Assembly: GCA_902581405.1 (NCBI GenBank) | Contig: CACHOJ010000005.1 | Coordinates: 1 to 64,000, forward strand | Length of the DNA stretch: 64,000 bases | Direction: 5' to 3' | From: an uncultured Pelagibacteraceae bacterium | GTDB taxonomy: Bacteria > Pseudomonadota > Alphaproteobacteria > Pelagibacterales > Pelagibacteraceae | In this document: positions 9,287 through 21,212 of the stretch, piece after piece | Layout of the letters: the number at the start of each line of letters is the position of its first letter | How positions within the stretch are numbered: position 1 is the stretch's first letter | The notes under the pieces: generated by a model | Database searches by the model: none | What the model was told of the DNA's origin: nothing | The model's input: only the letters and a program-made list of their open reading frames with translations | Translations under genes and position numbers: made by a program

Positions 9287-10302
9287 TGACAAAAATTTGT
9301 ATATTTGGTGCAGGATCTATCGGTGGATATTTGGCAGCTTGTTTAAGTAAAACAAATATAGATTTATCTCTTATAGCAAGAGGACCACACAAAAAAGCGA
9401 TAGAAGAAAATGGATTGACATTAATTAAAGAGGGTAGGTCTGAAAACTTTAAATTAAAAGTAACCGATGATCCCAAAACATTAGGTGTACAAGACTATAT
9501 ATTTATTTCTGTAAAGGCTCATGCAATTTCAAATATTGTTGATTCACTAAAAAATATTATTGGAGAAAAAACTTCGATTATATCAGCTGTAAATGGACTT
9601 CCTTGGTGGTATTTTTATAAAGCAAATACTGGAACAAATTTAGATAACCATCATATTGATAGTGTGGATCCCGAGGGAAAAATATGGAAACATTTAGATC
9701 CTGCAAAAGCTATTGGTTGTGTTGTTTACCCCGCTGCTGAAATAACAGAACCAGGTGTAATAAAACATAATGGAGGAGAAAGATTTACACTTGGTGAACC
9801 TGATGGATCTAAATCAGAAAGACTTAAACTCATTGCTGAATTATTAATTGCAGGCGGATTAAAAGCTCCTCAAAAAAGTAATTTAAGAGATGAAATTTGG
9901 ATAAAACTTTGGGGTAATTGCTCATTTAATATCATTAGTGCTCTTTATGATAAAACCTTAGATGAAATTGGAAATGATCCAGAATTGTTAAAAATAGTTA
10001 GAAAATTGATGGAGGAATGCCAACAAATAGGTGAAAAAATTGGGGTAAAATTTAATGTTTCTATTGATCATAGAATAAATGCTGCGATTTCTATTAAGGG
10101 TCATAAACCATCAACAACTCAAGATTTACATGCTAAACGTCCATTAGAAATTGATCCGATTATTGGTTCTCTTATTGAAATTGGTAACAAAGTTAATATC
10201 AAAACTGAAAATTTAAAATCTGAGTACGAAAAATTAAAAACAAAAGCAGAAAATCTTGGTTTATACAAAAGATCAAAAATAATTGATCAAATCACAAAGT
10301 AA
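9286..10302 (+). CDS. Ketopantoate reductase (ApbA/PanE)-family dehydrogenase
   Basis: N-terminal Rossmann GAGSIGGYLA, ISVKAHAI, ELWIKLWGNCSFN-like C-terminal domain. Confidence 0.85.
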   Translation: MTKICIFGAGSIGGYLAACLSKTNIDLSLIARGPHKKAIEENGLTLIKEGRSENFKLKVTDDPKTLGVQDYIFISVKAHAISNIVDSLKNIIGEKTSIISAVNGLPWWYFYKANTGTNLDNHHIDSVDPEGKIWKHLDPAKAIGCVVYPAAEITEPGVIKHNGGERFTLGEPDGSKSERLKLIAELLIAGGLKAPQKSNLRDEIWIKLWGNCSFNIISALYDKTLDEIGNDPELLKIVRKLMEECQQIGEKIGVKFNVSIDHRINAAISIKGHKPSTTQDLHAKRPLEIDPIIGSLIEIGNKVNIKTENLKSEYEKLKTKAENLGLYKRSKIIDQITK

Positions 10303-12954
10303 TTAAAAGTTTAAAGATATATCTCTGTGGATAGAATTACATTTTGAAACATATATAGCTTGTTCTTTTGTAAGTTTTGATTGCAATCTTAATCCAATAG
10401 TCTCACTAATAACTTTGTCATGAGCGTTTATTCTATCCATATATTTTTTCTTGAAATTTTTTCTCCAACTAACTTCTTGCTCAAATAACACAATAGTATT
10501 GACCGTTGAGGATTGGAGTTTTTCAAAATCAACTTCGTCCTCATCCATTAAAGTTATAAGATAGTCTAATTTATCGGCAAACTCATCAGATCCAGAAATT
10601 TCTCCAACCTTTTCAAATATATTATCTATAAACTCTATTGCATCAATGTAACCTCTGTTATCTATTTTATTTTTAAGAAGTTTCATTTCTTGCTCTAATT
10701 CTTCAAATTTTTCACCATCATTTATAAAACTCTTAATCAACAATAAATCTTCGTAAGCATTATCAACTGTTTTTCGATATTTTCTTGTTGCAAGATTTTT
10801 TGCTTTATTAATTTTGTTAAATTCATCATTTTTTGATTTCCATTCTTCTGGGATTTGACTACTTATCTCATCTATTTCTAGTTTCACATTTTCAATTTTT
10901 TGTTCAAGTTTGTTTTTTTCTGAAACATCTTCATCATCTAAGTTTCTTATCTCAGCTTTATACTTATCTATCTTTTTATTTAATTTTAAAATCTTCTTTT
11001 GTTTCTTTCTTGTTTTAAAATGTAAGTCTCTGTAACCGACTGCATAATCGTTATATAATGTCTCTGTGCTTTTAACCTCATTAACAAGTTCAAAAGAGTA
11101 CTTAGAATTATCAACATGGCGTTGGAAATAACTTAATTTATCTGCTGGTAAATTTGCAAGAATTATGTCGTCAAAGTCAGTTATACTTTTATTTATTATA
11201 TCAGCATTATTAGAGTAGTTTGCAAATTTATACTCTTGTAAGCAATATTGTAGTTTTGGATTCATCGGCGGTGGAGCAACATTAGATGTTAAATAAACCC
11301 TGTTTGGTAAATAATTTACTAGACTAGGGTATGCGCCCACAATTCCTAAACCGATAAGTTGTAAGATAATAAAAGGAACAACACCTTTCCAGATATCTAA
11401 TGTTTGGACCACTTTTGGAGCTACGCCTTTTAAATAAAATAAAGCAAATCCAAATGGCGGTGTTAAGAAAGAAGTTTGTAAATTAACACCTATCATTACT
11501 CCAAGCCATACAGCCGTAACATTTGCTCCTGTTTCAGCTAGCAATATCGGTGCAATTATTGGTACAACAACAACTGCAATCTCAATAAAATCTAAAAAGA
11601 AACCTAACAAGAAAATTACAATCATGACCACAACAAACTGAGTCCAAAAACCTCCTGGTAAATCTTGAAGAAAATCTCTTACTAATTCTTCTCCACCAAA
11701 TGCTCTAAAGCCAGACGTAAGCATTGCAGCACCAAGAAGAATTATAAATACCATTGAAGTAGTAATACAAGTCTCAGTAACTACTTCTTTTAAAACATTT
11801 TCAGTTTTAAATGTTCTCCAAAAACTCCATGCAATACCATAAACGAGTATTGCTACAAAAAATGCGGTAATATAGATAGCACCTAAATTTCTTTCTTCTA
11901 AATTTTTAACATTAAGTTCATATGTGGATGCAAGAAAAGTAATAGGTATTAATGATCCAATTATAAGAATTAAAGGATAAAATGCACTTTTCTTACCTTC
12001 AAATAATCTATAACCAGCCATCAACGTTGCACCAATTGCTCCAATTGAACCAGCTTGGTTAACTGTTGCTATACCCATCAAAATTGAACCCAAAACTGCA
12101 AAAATAAGTGCAAGAGGAGGAATAATTATAACAATTACTCGTAACCAAAATTTAAGATTAAATTCTCCTTTAAATGGAACTGGTGGAGCTACACCTTTTT
12201 TTATTCTCGCATAGAAAAATACATAGATCATGTAAAGCGCAACTAAAACAAGACCAGGTAAAAGAGCACCAAGGAACATATCACCAGCACTTGAAGACCC
12301 AACTCTAAATTCTCCTGGCATGTTAAATTCTCCAGTGACTGCTTTATAATCATTTTGACGGATGTTGTTTGCAACATCTGATGCGCTAGCTAATTGGTCA
12401 GCAATAATAATTAAAACAATAGATGGGGGTATTATTTGACCTAACGTTCCAGATGAACATACGATACCACTGGCAAGTTTCCTATCGTAGTTATTATTTA
12501 ACATAGTAGGTAATGAGATTAATCCCATTGCAATAACGGTTGCCCCAACAATACCTGTAGTTGCTGCCAACAATGCTCCAACGAAAATTACTGAAATACC
12601 AAGACCACCAGGAATTGGACCAAATAATTGACCCATTGTTATTAATAAATCTTCTGCAATTTTGGATTTTTGCAGCATAATCCCCATAAAAATAAATAAA
12701 GGAATTGCAATTAGGGTGTCAGTTTCAACATCCCAATAATTACTCCTAAAGTTTGTAATACCAGCAACAAGCCATTCTATCGGACCATCAACTGCAAAAT
12801 AAGCATCTGCATCACCTTCAAATAAATATCCAAAAAATGCAGCTAATCCAATTGATATTATAGCGGAACCAGGAAGCGCAAATGCTACGGGATATCCAGA
12901 AGCAAGAGCAACTATCATTATTAAGACTAAAACTGCTAAGAAAAATAGTTCCAT
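10303..12954 (-). CDS. TRAP transporter large permease (DctM) with a long C-terminal coiled-coil extension
   Basis: Multi-TM DctM core with PLFIFMGIMLQKS and FLTPPFGFALFYLKGVAP, followed by about 300 charged, helix-prone residues (KKQKKILKLNKKIDKYKAEIRNL...). Confidence 0.92.
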   Translation of the reverse strand: MELFFLAVLVLIMIVALASGYPVAFALPGSAIISIGLAAFFGYLFEGDADAYFAVDGPIEWLVAGITNFRSNYWDVETDTLIAIPLFIFMGIMLQKSKIAEDLLITMGQLFGPIPGGLGISVIFVGALLAATTGIVGATVIAMGLISLPTMLNNNYDRKLASGIVCSSGTLGQIIPPSIVLIIIADQLASASDVANNIRQNDYKAVTGEFNMPGEFRVGSSSAGDMFLGALLPGLVLVALYMIYVFFYARIKKGVAPPVPFKGEFNLKFWLRVIVIIIPPLALIFAVLGSILMGIATVNQAGSIGAIGATLMAGYRLFEGKKSAFYPLILIIGSLIPITFLASTYELNVKNLEERNLGAIYITAFFVAILVYGIAWSFWRTFKTENVLKEVVTETCITTSMVFIILLGAAMLTSGFRAFGGEELVRDFLQDLPGGFWTQFVVVMIVIFLLGFFLDFIEIAVVVVPIIAPILLAETGANVTAVWLGVMIGVNLQTSFLTPPFGFALFYLKGVAPKVVQTLDIWKGVVPFIILQLIGLGIVGAYPSLVNYLPNRVYLTSNVAPPPMNPKLQYCLQEYKFANYSNNADIINKSITDFDDIILANLPADKLSYFQRHVDNSKYSFELVNEVKSTETLYNDYAVGYRDLHFKTRKKQKKILKLNKKIDKYKAEIRNLDDEDVSEKNKLEQKIENVKLEIDEISSQIPEEWKSKNDEFNKINKAKNLATRKYRKTVDNAYEDLLLIKSFINDGEKFEELEQEMKLLKNKIDNRGYIDAIEFIDNIFEKVGEISGSDEFADKLDYLITLMDEDEVDFEKLQSSTVNTIVLFEQEVSWRKNFKKKYMDRINAHDKVISETIGLRLQSKLTKEQAIYVSKCNSIHRDISLNF

Positions 12955-12957
12955 AAT

Positions 12958-13947
12958 TTAATTTTCCTTACCATTTAAAATTTTATAACTACTACCCATG
13001 AAATAGCTCGTAAACTGTAAAAGCATGGTAACTGCAAATACTGCTAAGTATACAGCCATCAAATATAAAAGGTATAAACCATTAGATCCTTGTTGCGTAA
13101 CTTCAAAGGCAACCACCGGTCCATTTATAATACTTGCTTTTCCATTAAGTCCTAAAAATAAAACTATCAATACAAGTGGAACACCTAGAAGAGCAGAGCC
13201 TAAAAGATTTGTCCAAGCTTTTTTTCTCTCACTAAACGAAGAGTATAACACATCTACTCTAACATGACCTTCGTGAATTAAAGCATAAGCACTTGCAAAT
13301 AAATATAGTGCAGCATACCAGAAACGAACAAGATCTCCTTGAAAAGCTTGCTCGTAAGAAAATATAAATCTAGATAAGACAATTATGAATTCACTAACAA
13401 CAACTAAAACTGCTAACCAAATAAAACCAACAGATTTTGTAAAGTAGCCAATTACAAATGAAATTAATATAATTGGAAAATGTATAAATGTAATTCTTTC
13501 TGGCGATTTCACCATAAAGGCCTTCACTTCTGGACTGAATATTGCTTCCCATAATCTTTCAACAACCATGAACGAAATTATAAAGTCAGCAACACCAACT
13601 AAAAAGACCGCCCAAAAAGATGACCTAACCAAATAAGCTGAAAATTTTGATAGTATCTCTGAGTCTCGTTCTAAAGTTTGAGAGTAAGTTTTAAAAACAT
13701 AAATTATTACAGCTACAATGCATATTAAATACACTCCAATTTGCATGAAACCGTAATTTAAAGCAGATCCATCAAGTGCCTTTTTCTTGAAACCAAACAT
13801 TTCATAATGAGAAAAAATTTTCTTAACTCCAGGCCAATCACTCCAAACTGTTAAAACATTATTTATTAGGAATGCTAGGGTGAAAGCTAATACTGAGTAG
13901 CTTAAAATTCTTAGATATAAAGATATTTTACTGCTTTCTGAACTCAT
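12958..13947 (-). CDS. TRAP transporter small permease (DctQ), enlarged
   Basis: DctQ-like C-terminal half (FASAYALIHEGHVRVDVLYSSFSERKKAWTNLLG) preceded by extra TM segments; 329 aa. Confidence 0.88.
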   Translation of the reverse strand: MSSESSKISLYLRILSYSVLAFTLAFLINNVLTVWSDWPGVKKIFSHYEMFGFKKKALDGSALNYGFMQIGVYLICIVAVIIYVFKTYSQTLERDSEILSKFSAYLVRSSFWAVFLVGVADFIISFMVVERLWEAIFSPEVKAFMVKSPERITFIHFPIILISFVIGYFTKSVGFIWLAVLVVVSEFIIVLSRFIFSYEQAFQGDLVRFWYAALYLFASAYALIHEGHVRVDVLYSSFSERKKAWTNLLGSALLGVPLVLIVLFLGLNGKASIINGPVVAFEVTQQGSNGLYLLYLMAVYLAVFAVTMLLQFTSYFMGSSYKILNGKEN

Positions 13948-13987
13948 ATGAATTTAAATTTCTCTTAGTAATACTTAATTTTAAAAT

Positions 13988-14016
13988 AAAAAAAAGGGCC
14001 CAAAAAGGGCCCTTTT
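13988..14016 (-). terminator. Intrinsic terminator/attenuator between dctP and dctQ
   Basis: GGGCCC-TTTTT-GGGCCC stem followed on the minus strand by an 8-T tract. Confidence 0.85.
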
Positions 14017-14036
14017 AATTATCAAATTAAGTTTAA

Positions 14037-15167
14037 TTACATTCCTAAAGCTCTGTTTCTTTGAGAAATGTAAGGTGAATCAGACAAGTTAGTCCAAGAT
14101 CCAATGTCTTTTCTTGCTTTTAAGAAGCTCGAATGAACTCTTTCAGCAAGACCACTGCTAGCTCTTGTTTCTTCAAACACTTCGTTGGCAGCTGATGCAA
14201 AGCCATCGTATACCTTGTCGCTAAACTTCTCTAGTTTAACACCGTGATCATTGATCAATCTAGCTAAAGCCGCACCATTTTTAGCATTGTACTCAGACAT
14301 CATTACGTCGTTTTCCATTGCTGCAGCAGCTTCAATCAATAATTGATCTGATTTGTTTAAGCTTGTGAACCAAGATTTGTTTGTTCCACATGCTAACATT
14401 GATCCAGGCTCGTGCATACCAGGATAGTAGTAGTATTTAGCAGCTTCTTGGAATTTCATAGCTTCATCATTCCATGGACCTACCCACTCTGTAGCATCAA
14501 TTGCTCCAGATACTAGGTTTTCGTAAATTTGTCCACCAGGTAACGAAACTGGAGATCCTCCAAGTTTACCAATTACTTGTCCACCTAAACCAGGCATACG
14601 CATTTTTAAACCTTTGAAGTCATTAGGGCTTCTAATCTTTTTGTTAAACCATCCACCCATTTGAACTCCTGTGCTTCCACACATAAAGTTTTTAAGACCA
14701 AATTTGTCAGCTAGTTCATCCCATAACTCTTGACCACCTGCAAATCTAATCCATGCATTCATTTCAGTGTAAGTAAAACCAAATGGTACCGCTGTAAAAT
14801 AACCCCAAGCTGGATCCTTCTTCACCCAGTAGTAGTCAGCAGCGTGGTACATTTGCGAGTTACCAGATGCAACTTCGTCAAATGAGTCAAATGCTTTAAC
14901 TCTTTCGTTCGCTGCATAATAAGTAACTTGTATTCTACCATCACTTATATCTGAGATTCTTTGTGCAAATCTTTGAGCTCCTGTTCCTAAACCTGGAAAG
15001 TCTCTTCCCCAAGTAGCAACCATTGATGCTTCAATTCTTTCAGCAGCAACAGCTGGGGCAGCTAAAGATGATGCAGCTACAGCAGCAACACCAGTTGCAG
15101 CAGCAGCTTTAAAGAACTTACGTCTTGAAGGTGTTTTTTTAACCTTCAGCTTTTTGTCTTTAATCAT
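14037..15167 (-). CDS. TRAP transporter substrate-binding protein (DctP/TakP-like), Tat signal
   Basis: SRRKFFKAAAATG twin-arginine leader; DFKGLKMRMPGLGGQVIGKLGGSPVSLPGGQIYENLVSGAIDATEWVGPWND is typical of the alpha-keto acid/mannitol-type TRAP SBP class. Confidence 0.93.
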   Translation of the reverse strand: MIKDKKLKVKKTPSRRKFFKAAAATGVAAVAASSLAAPAVAAERIEASMVATWGRDFPGLGTGAQRFAQRISDISDGRIQVTYYAANERVKAFDSFDEVASGNSQMYHAADYYWVKKDPAWGYFTAVPFGFTYTEMNAWIRFAGGQELWDELADKFGLKNFMCGSTGVQMGGWFNKKIRSPNDFKGLKMRMPGLGGQVIGKLGGSPVSLPGGQIYENLVSGAIDATEWVGPWNDEAMKFQEAAKYYYYPGMHEPGSMLACGTNKSWFTSLNKSDQLLIEAAAAMENDVMMSEYNAKNGAALARLINDHGVKLEKFSDKVYDGFASAANEVFEETRASSGLAERVHSSFLKARKDIGSWTNLSDSPYISQRNRALGM

Positions 15168-15271
15168 TTATTTCTCCTCTTAAGTTAATTAACTGCAGGA
15201 TATTAAACACATATGTTACTTAGAGTCATTTTAAAAATGACCAATATACAGTGAAATACAACTTCAGATTG

Positions 15272-16225
15272 TTAATTTACTTTATTTTTACAGTTTCCAG
15301 TTTTGAAAAATTCATCAATATTATCAATAGCTAAGTTAGCCATCGCAGTTCTAGTTTCCTTAGTAGCACTACCTAAATGGGGAAGTATAAATGCACTTTT
15401 GTGCTTATAGTAACCCTTGTTTAAATGTGGCTCATTTTTATAAACATCTAACCCAACTGCATAAACTTTCCTTCTGTTGAGCGCATCAATCATTGCCTCA
15501 TCTTCAATAATGTCTCCTCTTGCAACATTGGTTACGACTGCGCCCTTTGGTAAATATTCAATTGTATCTTTATTAATCATATCAATTGTTTCTTTTGATG
15601 CTGGACAGCATACTGATAGCACATCCGATACAGATAAAAGACCTTTTAAATTATCGTGATAAATAGCACCTTGCTCTTTATCTTCACTTAGTTTCGATCT
15701 GTTATGATAGTGAATTATCATACCAAGAGATTTTGCTACTTTTGCAATTTTTTGTCCAATTCTTCCCATACCTAAAATTCCTAATCTAGTACCTGTCAGT
15801 TGTTTCCCAATTAAAAGATCAGCTGACCAAACCCATCCTCCTTGCCTTGCTTGCTCAATTCCTTCTGAAGCTCTTCTACATGCGCCTAAAATTAATAATA
15901 CTCCAATTTCAGCAGTAGCATCTGTTAAAACATCTGGAGTATTCGTTACAGCAATACCTTTATTTTTTGCTGCCTCTAAATCAATATTTCCAAATCCAAC
16001 TGCAAAGTTTGAAAGTATTTTAATACTATTTGGTAATTGATTAATTGTATCAGCATCCAACTTATCAGTTAATGCTGAAAGTATGCCATCACAACCTTGG
16101 CTCATTTCAATTAATTTTTTTTGTGAGTAAAGTTCATCATTTAAATTTAGATTTGCATCAAACATTTCCTTTGCTCGATCTTCACAAGATCTTAATAATC
16201 TTCTAGTAACTAAAATTTTTTTCAT
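15272..16225 (-). CDS. D-isomer-specific 2-hydroxyacid dehydrogenase (glyoxylate/hydroxypyruvate reductase-like)
   Basis: GTRLGILGMGRIGQKIAK, VTNVARGDIIEDEAMIDAL, LPHLGSATKETR. Confidence 0.9.
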   Translation of the reverse strand: MKKILVTRRLLRSCEDRAKEMFDANLNLNDELYSQKKLIEMSQGCDGILSALTDKLDADTINQLPNSIKILSNFAVGFGNIDLEAAKNKGIAVTNTPDVLTDATAEIGVLLILGACRRASEGIEQARQGGWVWSADLLIGKQLTGTRLGILGMGRIGQKIAKVAKSLGMIIHYHNRSKLSEDKEQGAIYHDNLKGLLSVSDVLSVCCPASKETIDMINKDTIEYLPKGAVVTNVARGDIIEDEAMIDALNRRKVYAVGLDVYKNEPHLNKGYYKHKSAFILPHLGSATKETRTAMANLAIDNIDEFFKTGNCKNKVN

Positions 16226-16234
16226 GCAATTTGA

Positions 16235-17614
16235 TTAGTTTAAATCAAAGATTTTTCCAGGATTCATTATGTTATTAACATCTAATGATCTTTTAATAGA
16301 TTTCATAACTGGAACATTATCTGGATGTTCTCTAAGTAAATAATGTTTCTTTTGTAGTCCAATACCATGCTCTCCTGTAATCGTTCCCTCGAGTTCAAGA
16401 GCTTTATTAATTAAGTCATCACTGTATTGTCGGATTTTTTTTTGTTTTTCCTCATCATCTGGATCATAAAGTACTATTGAGTGAAAATTTCCATCTCCTA
16501 CATGTCCTACCATTGGTGCGGTTAATCCTAACTTTTGTACCTCTTTTTCTGCCCATGAAATACATTCAACTAATCTTGAAATTGGCACACAAACATCTGT
16601 GGAATAAACTTTCATATCGTTACCCAAAGCTTTAACTGAGTAATACACATCATGTCTTGCTTTCCATAATTTTTTCTGTTCCTCAGGTGAAGATGCCCAT
16701 TGAAAATCACTTCCACCATTACTTTTTGAAATTTCTTCAACTACACCTATTGACTCATTATTTGAATTTTCACTACCATGAAATTCAAAAAATAAAGTGG
16801 GTGATGCTTTTATGTTATCTAATTTTGAATATTTTATACTTATTTCCATTTGATCTTTATTTAGCATTTCAATTCTCGCTATTGGGACACCATATTGGAT
16901 AACCTCTTGAGCAGCTTTTACTGCTGAGTCTAAATCTGGAAAGTAACACACTGCACTCATTATACTTTCAGGTATCGGAGATAACCTTAATTGAACTTCA
17001 GTGATTATTCCCAGAGTTCCTTCAGAACCAATAAATAAATTTGTTAAATTATATCCTGCAGAAGTTTTTTTTGTTCTGGCTCCAGTTTTAATAATATCTC
17101 CATTCGGAAGAACAACTGTTAAACCTGAGATTACAGTTCTCATAGTTCCATATTTCACAGCCATTGTACCTGATGCCGATGTTGCAGCCATTCCACCAAG
17201 AGCAGCGTCTGCTCCAGGATCTATTGGAAAGAATACTCCATCCTCACGAAGATATTCATTTAGTTGTTTTCTAGTTACATTTGCCTGTACTCGACAATCA
17301 AAATCTTCAGCATTAACACTCAATACTTTGTTCATTTTTTCAAGAGAAATTGTTATTCCATTTTGATTTCCAACAACATGGCCTTCTAGTGAAGTTCCAG
17401 TGCCAAAGGGAACAACCGGAATTTTGTGTTCATTACATAACTTTAATAACTGTGATACTTCTTCATTAGTCTCAGGGAATACGACAGCTTTTGATAGAAT
17501 TGGATCATAAGTATCTTCTCCTCTAGCATAGTTTGCCCTTGTAGATTCTGAGGTTGAAAACCTTCCATTAAAAATCTTTTTTAATTCTGTTTGAACAGTT
17601 TCATTCATAATCAA
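16235..17614 (-). CDS. FAD-linked D-2-hydroxyacid oxidase/dehydrogenase (GlcD/D-lactate dehydrogenase-like)
   Basis: PVVPFGTGTSLEGH, DPGADAALGGMAATSASGTMAVKYGTM, VGHVGDGNFHSIVLYD, TGEHGIGLQKKHYL. Confidence 0.92.
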   Translation of the reverse strand: MIMNETVQTELKKIFNGRFSTSESTRANYARGEDTYDPILSKAVVFPETNEEVSQLLKLCNEHKIPVVPFGTGTSLEGHVVGNQNGITISLEKMNKVLSVNAEDFDCRVQANVTRKQLNEYLREDGVFFPIDPGADAALGGMAATSASGTMAVKYGTMRTVISGLTVVLPNGDIIKTGARTKKTSAGYNLTNLFIGSEGTLGIITEVQLRLSPIPESIMSAVCYFPDLDSAVKAAQEVIQYGVPIARIEMLNKDQMEISIKYSKLDNIKASPTLFFEFHGSENSNNESIGVVEEISKSNGGSDFQWASSPEEQKKLWKARHDVYYSVKALGNDMKVYSTDVCVPISRLVECISWAEKEVQKLGLTAPMVGHVGDGNFHSIVLYDPDDEEKQKKIRQYSDDLINKALELEGTITGEHGIGLQKKHYLLREHPDNVPVMKSIKRSLDVNNIMNPGKIFDLN

Positions 17615-17646
17615 ATATTATAGAAGTTTCTTTTAAAAAATACAGT

Positions 17647-18813
17647 CTATTTAGAAAGCATCTTGCCTATGTTTTCTAAGGCTTGTTGTATGTTATCTCT
17701 AGATGCGGCAAAACTAAATCTTACATAATCTTGGCAAGTTTGACCAAATGCAGTTCCCGGTACTATTGCTACTCCAGCTTCATGCATAGCTTTTTTACAA
17801 AACTCAGCACCTGTCATTCCAGTTCCTTTTACATTTGGAAAAGCGTAAAATGCACCACCTGGTAAACTACATTCTACTCCTGGTAACTCATTTAAACCTG
17901 TATGAATTAAATTTCTTCTTAAAGTAAATTTATCCAACATGTCTTTAATTGAGTCATCTGGACCATCTAAAGCAGCTATCCCAGCAAATTGGGCAGCTGC
18001 GTTCACACAAGATACACTATTAATTAGTAGTTTGTTTACATGTTCAACAAGTTCTTTTGGCCAAAAACTCCAACCTAATCTCCATCCAGTCATTGAATAT
18101 GCTTTGCTCCAACCCTCTAAAACAATAAGCCTATCTCTTAAATTTTCATAGTGGAAGAACGATGGCATTTCTTTGTAATCAAATATCTGTCTACTATAAA
18201 TTTCATCACTTAAAATAGTTACATGTGGATGTTTTTCTAATTCTTTGGCAAAATAATCTATAACTGGCTTCTCAACAAAACTTCCTGTTGGATTGTTGGG
18301 ATTAATTAAAATTAATAATCTCGTTTTATCAGTTATAAGTGAAAGTATTTTATCAGGATCAAACTTTAGATCTTTATCTTCAGTTAGATCATATGGTACA
18401 GGAGTAGATCCAGTATAGTTAATCATTGACTCATAAATAGGAAATGCAGGTGTTGGATGGATTATTTCTGCTCCTGGTTCACCATAACATTGTATTGCAT
18501 AACTCATTGTAGGTTTTCCACCTGGCATAATTAAAATTCTTTCAAAATCTATATCTGTATTATAACGTTTTTTAATCCATCTAGTTACAGCTTGCCTACA
18601 TTCTGGAATTCCATTCGACATAACATAACCATGATGACCATCATCTAAAGCTTTCTTAGCAGCCTCGACTACATGTTTTGGAGTTTTAAAATCTGGTTGT
18701 CCTAAACCCAAATGTATCATTGGATGACCTTTCGCCTCTAATGCTTTTGCCTCAGCTAAAACACTGAACGCAGATTCTGTTCCTAAATTTTCTAAACTTT
18801 TCGCCAACTTCAT
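17647..18813 (-). CDS. Class I/II PLP-dependent aminotransferase
   Basis: HLGLGQPDFKTPKHV, NPNNPTGSFV, LSDEIYSRQIFD, EGWSKAYSMTGWRLGW. Confidence 0.92.
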   Translation of the reverse strand: MKLAKSLENLGTESAFSVLAEAKALEAKGHPMIHLGLGQPDFKTPKHVVEAAKKALDDGHHGYVMSNGIPECRQAVTRWIKKRYNTDIDFERILIMPGGKPTMSYAIQCYGEPGAEIIHPTPAFPIYESMINYTGSTPVPYDLTEDKDLKFDPDKILSLITDKTRLLILINPNNPTGSFVEKPVIDYFAKELEKHPHVTILSDEIYSRQIFDYKEMPSFFHYENLRDRLIVLEGWSKAYSMTGWRLGWSFWPKELVEHVNKLLINSVSCVNAAAQFAGIAALDGPDDSIKDMLDKFTLRRNLIHTGLNELPGVECSLPGGAFYAFPNVKGTGMTGAEFCKKAMHEAGVAIVPGTAFGQTCQDYVRFSFAASRDNIQQALENIGKMLSK

Positions 18814-18909
18814 AAATTTAATTTTAAGCTGTGAAAACTAACTGAAAAGTTAGTGTATGTCTATTATATTTAATTTTATTTACTTATTTTTTATATTAGT
18901 AATTTTTAT

Positions 18910-20061
18910 TTATTTTCGGAAAATAATTTTTGATTCATCTAGGTCTTTGATACTTTTACAGCCCATCAATATCATGTTACGTCTTATTTCATCATGCATA
19001 TTTTGTAATAATCTTTCAATACCTTGTTGTCCGCCAGCCCCTAAACTAAACAAAAATGCTTTACCAAAACTACAAGCTGTCGCACCCGCTGCAAGTGCTT
19101 TCAATACATGTGTACCTCTTCTAACACCCCCATCTAATATAACCTCTAATTTATCACCTACTGCATCCCTAATAGCTTTTACCTGATCAAATGGAGATCT
19201 AGATCCATCAAGTTGTCTTCCTCCATGATTTGATATCATTATAGCTGTACATCCAATATCTATAGCTTTTTTTGCATCTTCAACTGACATAACTCCTTTA
19301 AGAGCAATAGGGCCATCCCATTTTTTGATGCAGTATTCTGCATCTTTCCAATTCATAGCTGGATCATACTGTTCATTTATATATCCCATAACAGATTGAG
19401 CAATATTTGTTCCTTTTTCAACTTTATCTTTCAGATTAGCTAATTCAAATTTCTTATTTGTAAAATAATTGAATACCCACTGCGGTCTCATGGCGAAACT
19501 CATTAGGCTATCTAATGTAAATTTTGGAGGTGTTGTAAAACCTGTTCTATGGTCCCTTTCCCTATTTCCAGCAACGATTGTATCAACAGTAATACACATA
19601 CCATTGAAGTTTGCTCTTTTACATCTATCAATTAAGTCGTCAGTTATAGATTGATCTTTATGGATATATAATTGAAAGATTTTCGGTCCACTTGAAAGAT
19701 TTGCAATTTCTTCGATCGAAAAAGATGCCATTGTAGACATACTATAAATTGTACCAAATTTTTCTGCTGCACGAGCAGATGCTTTGTCTCCATCTGGATG
19801 ATATAAACTTTGCATTGCAGTAGGAGACAAAAAAATTGGCATGTCCATTTTTGTTCCAAAAACCTCAGTTTTTAAATCTGGCTCACCGACACTATTTAAA
19901 ATATTTGGGACTAGATCGCAGTCATTAAATGAATCTGTGTTTCTATTCATTGTGACTTCATCGTCAGCTCCACCATCAATGTAATGAAAAATCGGGGCAG
20001 GTAATTTTTTTTTTGCTAGCTTTCTAAAGTCATCGAAATTGTAGCAATTCTTTAGACTCAT
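18910..20061 (-). CDS. FMN-dependent L-2-hydroxyacid dehydrogenase (LldD family), copy 1
   Basis: ISNHGGRQLDGSRSPFD, LDGGVRRGTHVLKALAAGA. Confidence 0.92.
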   Translation of the reverse strand: MSLKNCYNFDDFRKLAKKKLPAPIFHYIDGGADDEVTMNRNTDSFNDCDLVPNILNSVGEPDLKTEVFGTKMDMPIFLSPTAMQSLYHPDGDKASARAAEKFGTIYSMSTMASFSIEEIANLSSGPKIFQLYIHKDQSITDDLIDRCKRANFNGMCITVDTIVAGNRERDHRTGFTTPPKFTLDSLMSFAMRPQWVFNYFTNKKFELANLKDKVEKGTNIAQSVMGYINEQYDPAMNWKDAEYCIKKWDGPIALKGVMSVEDAKKAIDIGCTAIMISNHGGRQLDGSRSPFDQVKAIRDAVGDKLEVILDGGVRRGTHVLKALAAGATACSFGKAFLFSLGAGGQQGIERLLQNMHDEIRRNMILMGCKSIKDLDESKIIFRK

Positions 20062-21212
20062 TATCTTCTGAATCTTAAATTACTTCTATTTAGATCACTA
20101 ATTTTTGTGCAACCCATGAGTTTCATGTCACGTTGCAGCTCTGTTTTGTATTGATTTAAGGCTCTTTCAACACCAGCTTGGCCTGCAGCAGCTAGTGCAT
20201 ATAAATAAAGCCTACCACCTGAACATGCTTTAGCACCTAGTGACAATGCTTTCAGCATATGAGTACCTCTGTGAATTCCTCCTTCACATATAACATCAAG
20301 TTTATCTCCAACAGCATCAACTATTTCTGCTAATTGATCAAACGGAGATCTGGATCCATCAAGTTGTCTTCCACCATGATTGGAAACCATTATACCAGTA
20401 CATCCAATATCCACAGCTCTTTTTGCATCTTCTACGCTCATTATACCTTTAAGAGCAAAATGACCTCCCCATTTAGAACAAAGATTTTCAGCATCTTTCC
20501 AGTTCATAGATTGATCTAGCATGGTAGAAAAATAACTTCCAATCGAAGAGTTAGTACTGGTACCTTCTTTAACAAAATCTTGAAGATGAGGTAATTCAAA
20601 CTTACCTTTTGTTAAATAGTTTATTCCCCACATAGGCTTTATGGCAAAGCTAAATAGACTTGATAAAGTTAATTTTGGAGGCGATGTAAAGCCAGTTCTT
20701 AAATCTCTCTCCCTATTTCCACCAGTAATAGTATCTACTGTTAATGCCATTACATCAAACTTTGCTGCTTTAGCCCTCTCTAGACAAGAGTCATTAAGAC
20801 CTCTGTCTTTATGAAAGTAAAATTGAAACATTTTAGGTGTATCAATCATAGATGATATTTCTTCAACACTTACAGTTGCTAAAGCTGAAACACCAAACAT
20901 TGTATTAAATTTTTTTGCTGCTTTTCCTACAGCTCTTTCTCCATCATAATGGAAAAGTCTTTGTAAGGCTGTAGGCGCTAGATAAAAAGGTAGGTCCAAT
21001 TTTTTTCCAAATATTGTTGTTGAAAGATCAACACTTTCTACTCCTCTTAAAACATTTGGAACTAAATCAACATCATCAAAAGCACTTGTATTCCTAGCAT
21101 ATGTTATCTCATCGTCTGCAGCACCATCTATGTAATGGAAAATTGGAGAAGGTAATTTTTTCTTAGCTAATTTTCTAAAATCACTAAAATTGTGACAATC
21201 TTTTAAATTCAT
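20061..21212 (-). CDS. FMN-dependent L-2-hydroxyacid dehydrogenase (LldD family), copy 2
   Basis: VSNHGGRQLDGSRSPFD, CEGGIHRGTHMLKALSLGA; tandem paralog of the neighbouring gene, both 383 aa. Confidence 0.92.
   Translation of the reverse strand: MNLKDCHNFSDFRKLAKKKLPSPIFHYIDGAADDEITYARNTSAFDDVDLVPNVLRGVESVDLSTTIFGKKLDLPFYLAPTALQRLFHYDGERAVGKAAKKFNTMFGVSALATVSVEEISSMIDTPKMFQFYFHKDRGLNDSCLERAKAAKFDVMALTVDTITGGNRERDLRTGFTSPPKLTLSSLFSFAIKPMWGINYLTKGKFELPHLQDFVKEGTSTNSSIGSYFSTMLDQSMNWKDAENLCSKWGGHFALKGIMSVEDAKRAVDIGCTGIMVSNHGGRQLDGSRSPFDQLAEIVDAVGDKLDVICEGGIHRGTHMLKALSLGAKACSGGRLYLYALAAAGQAGVERALNQYKTELQRDMKLMGCTKISDLNRSNLRFRR

Follow-up and report, generated by a model that had tools for sequence, protein, structure and literature searches.

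Gene content of the locus

The window, a stretch of 64,000 nucleotides from an uncultured Pelagibacteraceae bacterium, carries on its minus strand a tripartite TRAP transporter encoded by adjacent dctP, dctQ and dctM genes. These belong to what is likely a run of eight genes (10303-21212, minus strand), in which the transporter genes are preceded on the same strand by two LldD-like, FMN L-lactate-dehydrogenase-type enzymes, an aminotransferase, a GlcD-like FAD oxidase and a D-2-hydroxyacid dehydrogenase. At the other end of the run, dctM converges with a PanE-like gene on the plus strand; the latter ends at 10302 and dctM at 10303, so that the two stop codons abut with zero bases between them. 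The features discussed below are the following.

10303-12954, minus strand: DctM, the TRAP large permease, core plus C-terminal tail (883 aa, ATG start)
11299-12954, minus strand: DctM membrane core, residues 1-552, an elevator-type permease whose C-terminus is expected to be periplasmic (PF06808, TIGR00786, alignment to solved SiaQM; C-out topology, PMC9971032)
12730-12822, minus strand: insertion of about 30 residues in the TM2-TM3 loop, found in the tail-bearing branch (alignment with tail-less DctMs)
11806-11994, minus strand: extra transmembrane hairpin in the core, residues ~321-383 (alignment)
10306-11298, minus strand: C-terminal tail, residues 553-883, an all-helical domain predicted to be periplasmic (AlphaFold; conserved in 42 aligned sequences)
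11242-11244, minus strand: Cys571, at the base of the putative arm
10942-11145, minus strand: longest helix of the tail, residues 604-671 (68 residues, about 100 angstroms; DSSP, AlphaFold models)
10720-10842, minus strand: second long helix, residues 705-745 (DSSP, AlphaFold models)
10408-10527, minus strand: third long helix, residues 810-849, which returns to the base (DSSP, AlphaFold models)
10339-10341, minus strand: Cys872, at the base, presumed disulfide partner of Cys571
10306-10323, minus strand: C-terminal motif DISLNF of DctM
12958-13947, minus strand: DctQ, the small permease, 329 aa, about twice the usual size (PF04290 on residues 187-309 only)
13435-13947, minus strand: N-terminal extension of DctQ, about 171 residues with four extra hydrophobic helices
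14037-15167, minus strand: DctP, TakP-like solute-binding protein (SBP) with a twin-arginine signal (PF03480)
14040-14063, minus strand: C-terminal motif QRNRALGM of DctP, specific to tail-bearing systems, a candidate contact site

A helical domain follows a complete DctM core

The dctM frame (10303-12954) runs without interruption across 883 codons. The Pfam DctM model (PF06808) matches the N-terminal part of the protein above its gathering score (E = 4.2e-63), and TIGR00786 matches the core with E = 5e-75, although its score of 252.7 lies under the curated cut-off of 268.45. The last DctM residue that can be aligned to the solved TRAP permeases is 552, at most 3 residues from the C-terminus of HiSiaQM (query residues 437-552 align with 542-652 of 655), and the tail of about 330 residues begins immediately after it. 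A DctM that ends at its last transmembrane helix (about 425-460 aa) is the usual form and not a strict criterion; we therefore regard the 883-aa protein, with its 330 additional residues, as a variant that is still a DctM, and one that has DctP and DctQ genes in its operon (12958-15167). The sequence-only reading had described a DctM with a tail of some 300 residues directly after the core and had placed that tail at 10303-11280; the PF06808 match bears out the description, with the tail at residues ~553-883, and the coordinates were correct to within about six residues. It had also stated that standard DctMs lack the tail, and this holds for 24 of 24 homologs compared, 7 of the 8 other DctM copies of the same genome among them, all of which stop 0-7 residues past the end of the core. 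The open frames of the 8 other copies have the lengths of ordinary or fused permeases: 429-455 residues, and in one case 664.

What this DctM has in common with described TRAP permeases (PF06808/TIGR00786; HiSiaQM, PpSiaQM) is thus a core with the DctM signature, here of 552 residues, in an operon with DctP and DctQ. It differs from HiSiaQM and PpSiaQM by the helical tail of 330 residues, the TM2-TM3 loop insertion and the extra transmembrane hairpin, the last of which is not unique to the tail-bearing branch, as it is also present in a tail-less relative of 551 aa. The fused QM permeases (HiSiaT, TIGR02123) are likewise architectural variants of the TRAP membrane subunits, but these have Q joined to the N-terminal end of M, whereas here a soluble domain is attached to the C-terminus of M and Q is separate. 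TAXI-GltS and other unusual binding-protein transporters also depart from the classic plan of an SBP and a transporter (PMC12344293); they do so with other permease or SBP families, while the DctM, DctQ and DctP families are retained here.

Modelled alone with AlphaFold, the tail is all-helical, with long antiparallel helices (pLDDT 91, pTM 0.82), in agreement with the helix-rich, coiled-coil character first read from its sequence. DSSP on the models places the main helices at residues 604-671, 677-699, 705-745 and 810-849, with shorter helices between them. The model of the full-length protein reproduces the tail helices (pLDDT 73 overall, tail confident and core weak); because of the weak core it was left out of any consideration of tail-core geometry. 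Confidence fell off most towards either end of the tail (blocks of 52, 82, 78 and 64) and within the core. The alignments used for modelling held 42 related sequences.

Profile and structure searches with the tail alone, as the sequence-only reading had proposed, returned no family or fold above cut-off. No Pfam or NCBIfam model matched the tail above its cut-off; HipA_2, SMC, DivIC, EzrA and other coiled-coil families appeared below threshold and inconsistently among members, and were rejected. A profile search against PDB sequences found generic coiled coils only (best E = 4e-4, a chain named sc-apCC-6), and Foldseek of the tail against PDB folds gave nothing significant (best E = 0.23). In the open-licence PMC literature we found no description of a C-terminal extension of DctM. 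The tail is a real, undescribed domain of a TRAP branch, and one that no Pfam or NCBIfam model covers.

The tail occurs in two classes and is conserved and of single origin

Within the genus, 12 of 37 genomes carry a tail-bearing DctM free of internal stops, and 2 more tails lie at contig ends. At least 80 Pelagibacteraceae/Pelagibacterales loci have a tail-bearing DctM, a count taken from the 80 best among 290 relatives, and the order has proteins of ~880-900 aa with the tail in 77 of its 297 genomes, other genera of the family among them. Across the class the count is 31 of 385 genomes, in 24 of 276 genera. A second class of the phylum has it in 6 of 185 genomes (E < 1e-80; weaker matches there were generic coiled coil and were left out of the count). 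A search of plasmids for the tail found none. These results exclude the two possibilities against which the tail had initially been set: that it is missing in close relatives, given a full-length ORF in many independently assembled genomes, and that it is an assembly fusion of two ORFs, given the same stop-free ORF in independent single-cell and metagenome genomes.

In a tree built from the core only, a quick tree in which some tail-less branches are long, one branch separates all 48 of 48 tail-bearing proteins from the rest (SH-aLRT 100, one change). The tail arose once, and tail-bearing DctM cores form one clade.

The expectation that the tail is functional and selected was upheld: it is conserved, and pairwise dN/dS, quoted only where dS was measurable, is about 0.03-0.21 in the tail against about 0-0.10 in the core. 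Conservation over 42 sequences peaks over the initial ~15 residues of the tail and its final ~30, not in its middle, and indels concentrate at the turn near residues 672-676. Invariant residues include Cys571, Arg831, Gly854, Cys872 and the C-terminal Phe883, the two cysteines and the terminal Phe being present in 42 of 42.

Outer-membrane proteins carry a C-terminal signature, and the DISLNF-type ending with its invariant final Phe partly resembles it, here on an inner-membrane permease. The shortest and most divergent tails are those of L191 (DctM of 864 aa) and G408:C167 (ORF of 838 aa), both from genomes of family f86. In L191 the turn of the long hairpin has become shorter by ~18 residues, but neither cysteine nor the final Phe is lost, as though the arm could vary in length.

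DctQ and DctP of tail-bearing systems are also modified

The gene order P-Q-M is conserved wherever the contig reaches, with one locus in which no P was detected, and the same order is found in five loci of the second class. DctQ beside a tail-bearing DctM is always long (302-369 aa where complete), owing to ~170 extra N-terminal residues. The four-helix DctQ domain itself is recognizable (PF04290, E = 4.6e-10, with a match in 33 of 33 relatives), and from its sequence the DctQ of the window probably has eight transmembrane helices. An origin of the extension by internal duplication of DctQ was considered and found no support, as it has no detectable homology to the DctQ domain (hhalign probability 8%).

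Where it could be tested, the DctQ extension was found only with tail-bearing DctM. Among the 385 genomes of the class, 32 have the DctQ extension, 31 the DctM tail and 30 both. The exceptions (G331 and G360 with the DctQ extension only, G432 with the DctM tail only) all lie near contig ends and do not count against the linkage, since the partner gene or the tail would run off the contig.

Among solved structures, the nearest relatives of DctP are 4pet, 5cm6 and 7ug8 (ketoacid-binding) and TakP of Rhodobacter sphaeroides (2hzk). DctP residues 15-366 align with residues 3-352 (of 365) of 2hzk (phmmer, E = 2e-64), a likeness that includes the C-terminal extension of TakP; the SBP is thus of the type found in TakPQM systems. 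The twin-arginine pair R15-R16 is invariant in 34 of 34 sequences. SBPs linked to a tail end in a QRNRVLG-type motif, with RN in 39 of 39, while the RNRxLG form is absent from all 15 of 15 tail-less TakP-like SBPs, one of which has 'RN' alone. Of the genomes of the second class, the six that have a tail also give the six best SBP scores (570-697 bits, all others at most 464).

Among the tail-less DctM cores sampled, the nearest adjoin TakP-like SBPs. In tail-less TakP-like systems with adjacent genes, DctQ has 165-253 aa, DctM is mostly shorter and lacks the tail, and the SBPs lack RNRxLG. The tail is no SAR11 peculiarity; it is the mark of a whole TRAP branch, in which DctQ is enlarged and the C-terminus of the SBP modified as well.

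In several alphaproteobacteria a second TRAP Q/M pair adjoins the tail-bearing operon (L175:909-3010, L185:2239-4386, L188:2285-4599, L192:8949-11087); its M is tail-less and has an unusually long ORF (522-715 aa).

Gene context and substrate

The genes in the run of eight suggest uptake and oxidation of lactate or 2-hydroxyacids in this SAR11 lineage. Among the loci examined, the dehydrogenase/oxidase set occurs elsewhere only in a near-identical genome (G031); because the set is lineage-specific, gene context hints at lactate or related 2-hydroxy/2-keto acids for this lineage only. TakP binds 2-ketoacids together with a cation (PMC1839085), and a 2-keto or 2-hydroxy monocarboxylate such as pyruvate, lactate or glycolate is a plausible substrate here. 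In several alphaproteobacterial loci outside SAR11 (L171, L168, L184, L186, L189) the operon lies near genes for arginyltransferase (ATE), BioY and/or gyrase/topoisomerase IV subunit A. This neighbourhood gave no clue to the substrate; it is perhaps a conserved chromosomal address.

The tail is predicted to be periplasmic

In PpSiaM both termini face outward (N-out/C-out) and TMs 10-12 belong to the transport domain (PMC9971032), and in HiSiaQM the last of 15 transmembrane helices lies in the mobile bundle (PMC9352664). As TRAP M subunits have this topology and their last helix belongs to the transport domain, we expect the tail to lie in the periplasm, carried by the moving (elevator) domain. 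The extra hairpin of the core should leave the C-terminus outside, because the two helices that it adds are an even number. N-out topology would also put the TM2-TM3 loop insertion on the periplasmic side, probably close to the face where the SBP docks. The sequence-only reading did not foresee this placement, which makes an envelope-side role, for instance in SBP handling, likelier than a cytoplasmic regulatory domain.

Each of 42 tails has exactly two cysteines, near its two ends, and 21 of the 42 full-length proteins have no other cysteine. Their invariance and their position near both ends of a domain that should be extracytoplasmic led us to propose a disulfide between Cys571 and Cys872; such a bond, which seems likely, would staple the base of the arm.

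A possible arm for the binding protein

The computations show directly that the domain is helical and conserved, that its two cysteines do not vary, that it arose once and that it occurs together with the DctQ extension and the motif of the SBP. What we propose from these results, at roughly even chances, is a branch of TRAP transporters in which an arm of DctM engages DctP. In this model the helices of the tail make up a rigid periplasmic arm that extends from the final transmembrane helix of the elevator domain, its base probably held together by the Cys571-Cys872 disulfide. The arm would most likely bind the TakP-like DctP, perhaps via the branch-specific C-terminal RNRxLG motif, hold it at the transporter and link its docking or opening to how the elevator moves; DctQ, enlarged to eight helices, would strengthen the fixed scaffold. 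An arm on the elevator would be well placed for this, because in HiSiaPQM the C-lobe of the SBP sits on the elevator domain (PMC9352664). The fullest version, in which a disulfide-stapled coiled-coil arm on the moving domain grips the RNRxLG C-terminus, gears SBP capture and opening mechanically to elevator position, and reflects the joint rebuilding of three subunits, is more speculative and on balance doubtful. Tail-less TakP-like systems work with the same SBP family, so that the tail is not required for delivery as such, and joint occurrence of branch-specific traits in DctM, DctQ and DctP can result from shared descent alone.

Regulation, oligomerisation and partner docking had been the roles suggested for the tail at the outset, and docking is the most likely of them. 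The main rival to an arm that engages the SBP is oligomerisation, in which the tails of two or more QM complexes would pair as coiled coils into a dimeric transporter, perhaps to suit a TakP-like SBP that is itself dimeric; the DctQ extension would then be the membrane interface. The long, coiled-coil-like helices, the extra DctQ membrane helices in the same systems and the helix-swapped dimers formed by TakP-type SBPs (PMC1839085) are consistent with it. Known TRAP transporters are nevertheless described as elevators that work as monomers, with Q taking the place of oligomerisation (PMC9352664, PMC9971032), and the confident single-chain model suggests that the tail helices pack within one chain; we consider pairing improbable, though worth keeping in view. 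Next comes an envelope tether that would span the periplasm and attach, through the invariant C-terminal Phe, to peptidoglycan, to an outer-membrane protein or to a quality-control protease. A helix of 68 residues and about 100 angstroms and the DISLNF-type end would suit it, but the tail resembles neither peptidoglycan-binding families nor other known tethers and is most conserved at its ends, so that the C-terminus is probably back near the membrane, and such a tether seems more improbable still.

Highly charged coiled-coil composition, which the tail has, is common among cytoplasmic domains and would fit a cytoplasmic regulator of the transporter. That role is very unlikely, given that the solved TRAP M subunits are C-out (PMC9971032, PMC9352664), that the extra core hairpin preserves this orientation and that two invariant cysteines suit an oxidising compartment. 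Hardly credible, finally, is a dispensable appendage or annotation artefact: substitutions do accumulate more quickly in the tail than in the core (the window copy and L005 are 56% identical in the former and 95% in the latter), but the presence of the tail in two classes from one origin, dN/dS well below 1, the invariant motifs and the lack of broken copies among the full-length matches listed all speak against it.

How a soluble SBP comes to be obligatorily coupled to a secondary transporter is an open question in TRAP transport. Tail-bearing TRAP systems are found in SAR11, a group that ranks with the most abundant bacteria of the ocean, and in other members of the phylum; with a predicted periplasmic domain on the moving part of the permease and matched changes in Q and P, this branch would offer a natural system in which that coupling may be trapped and tested.
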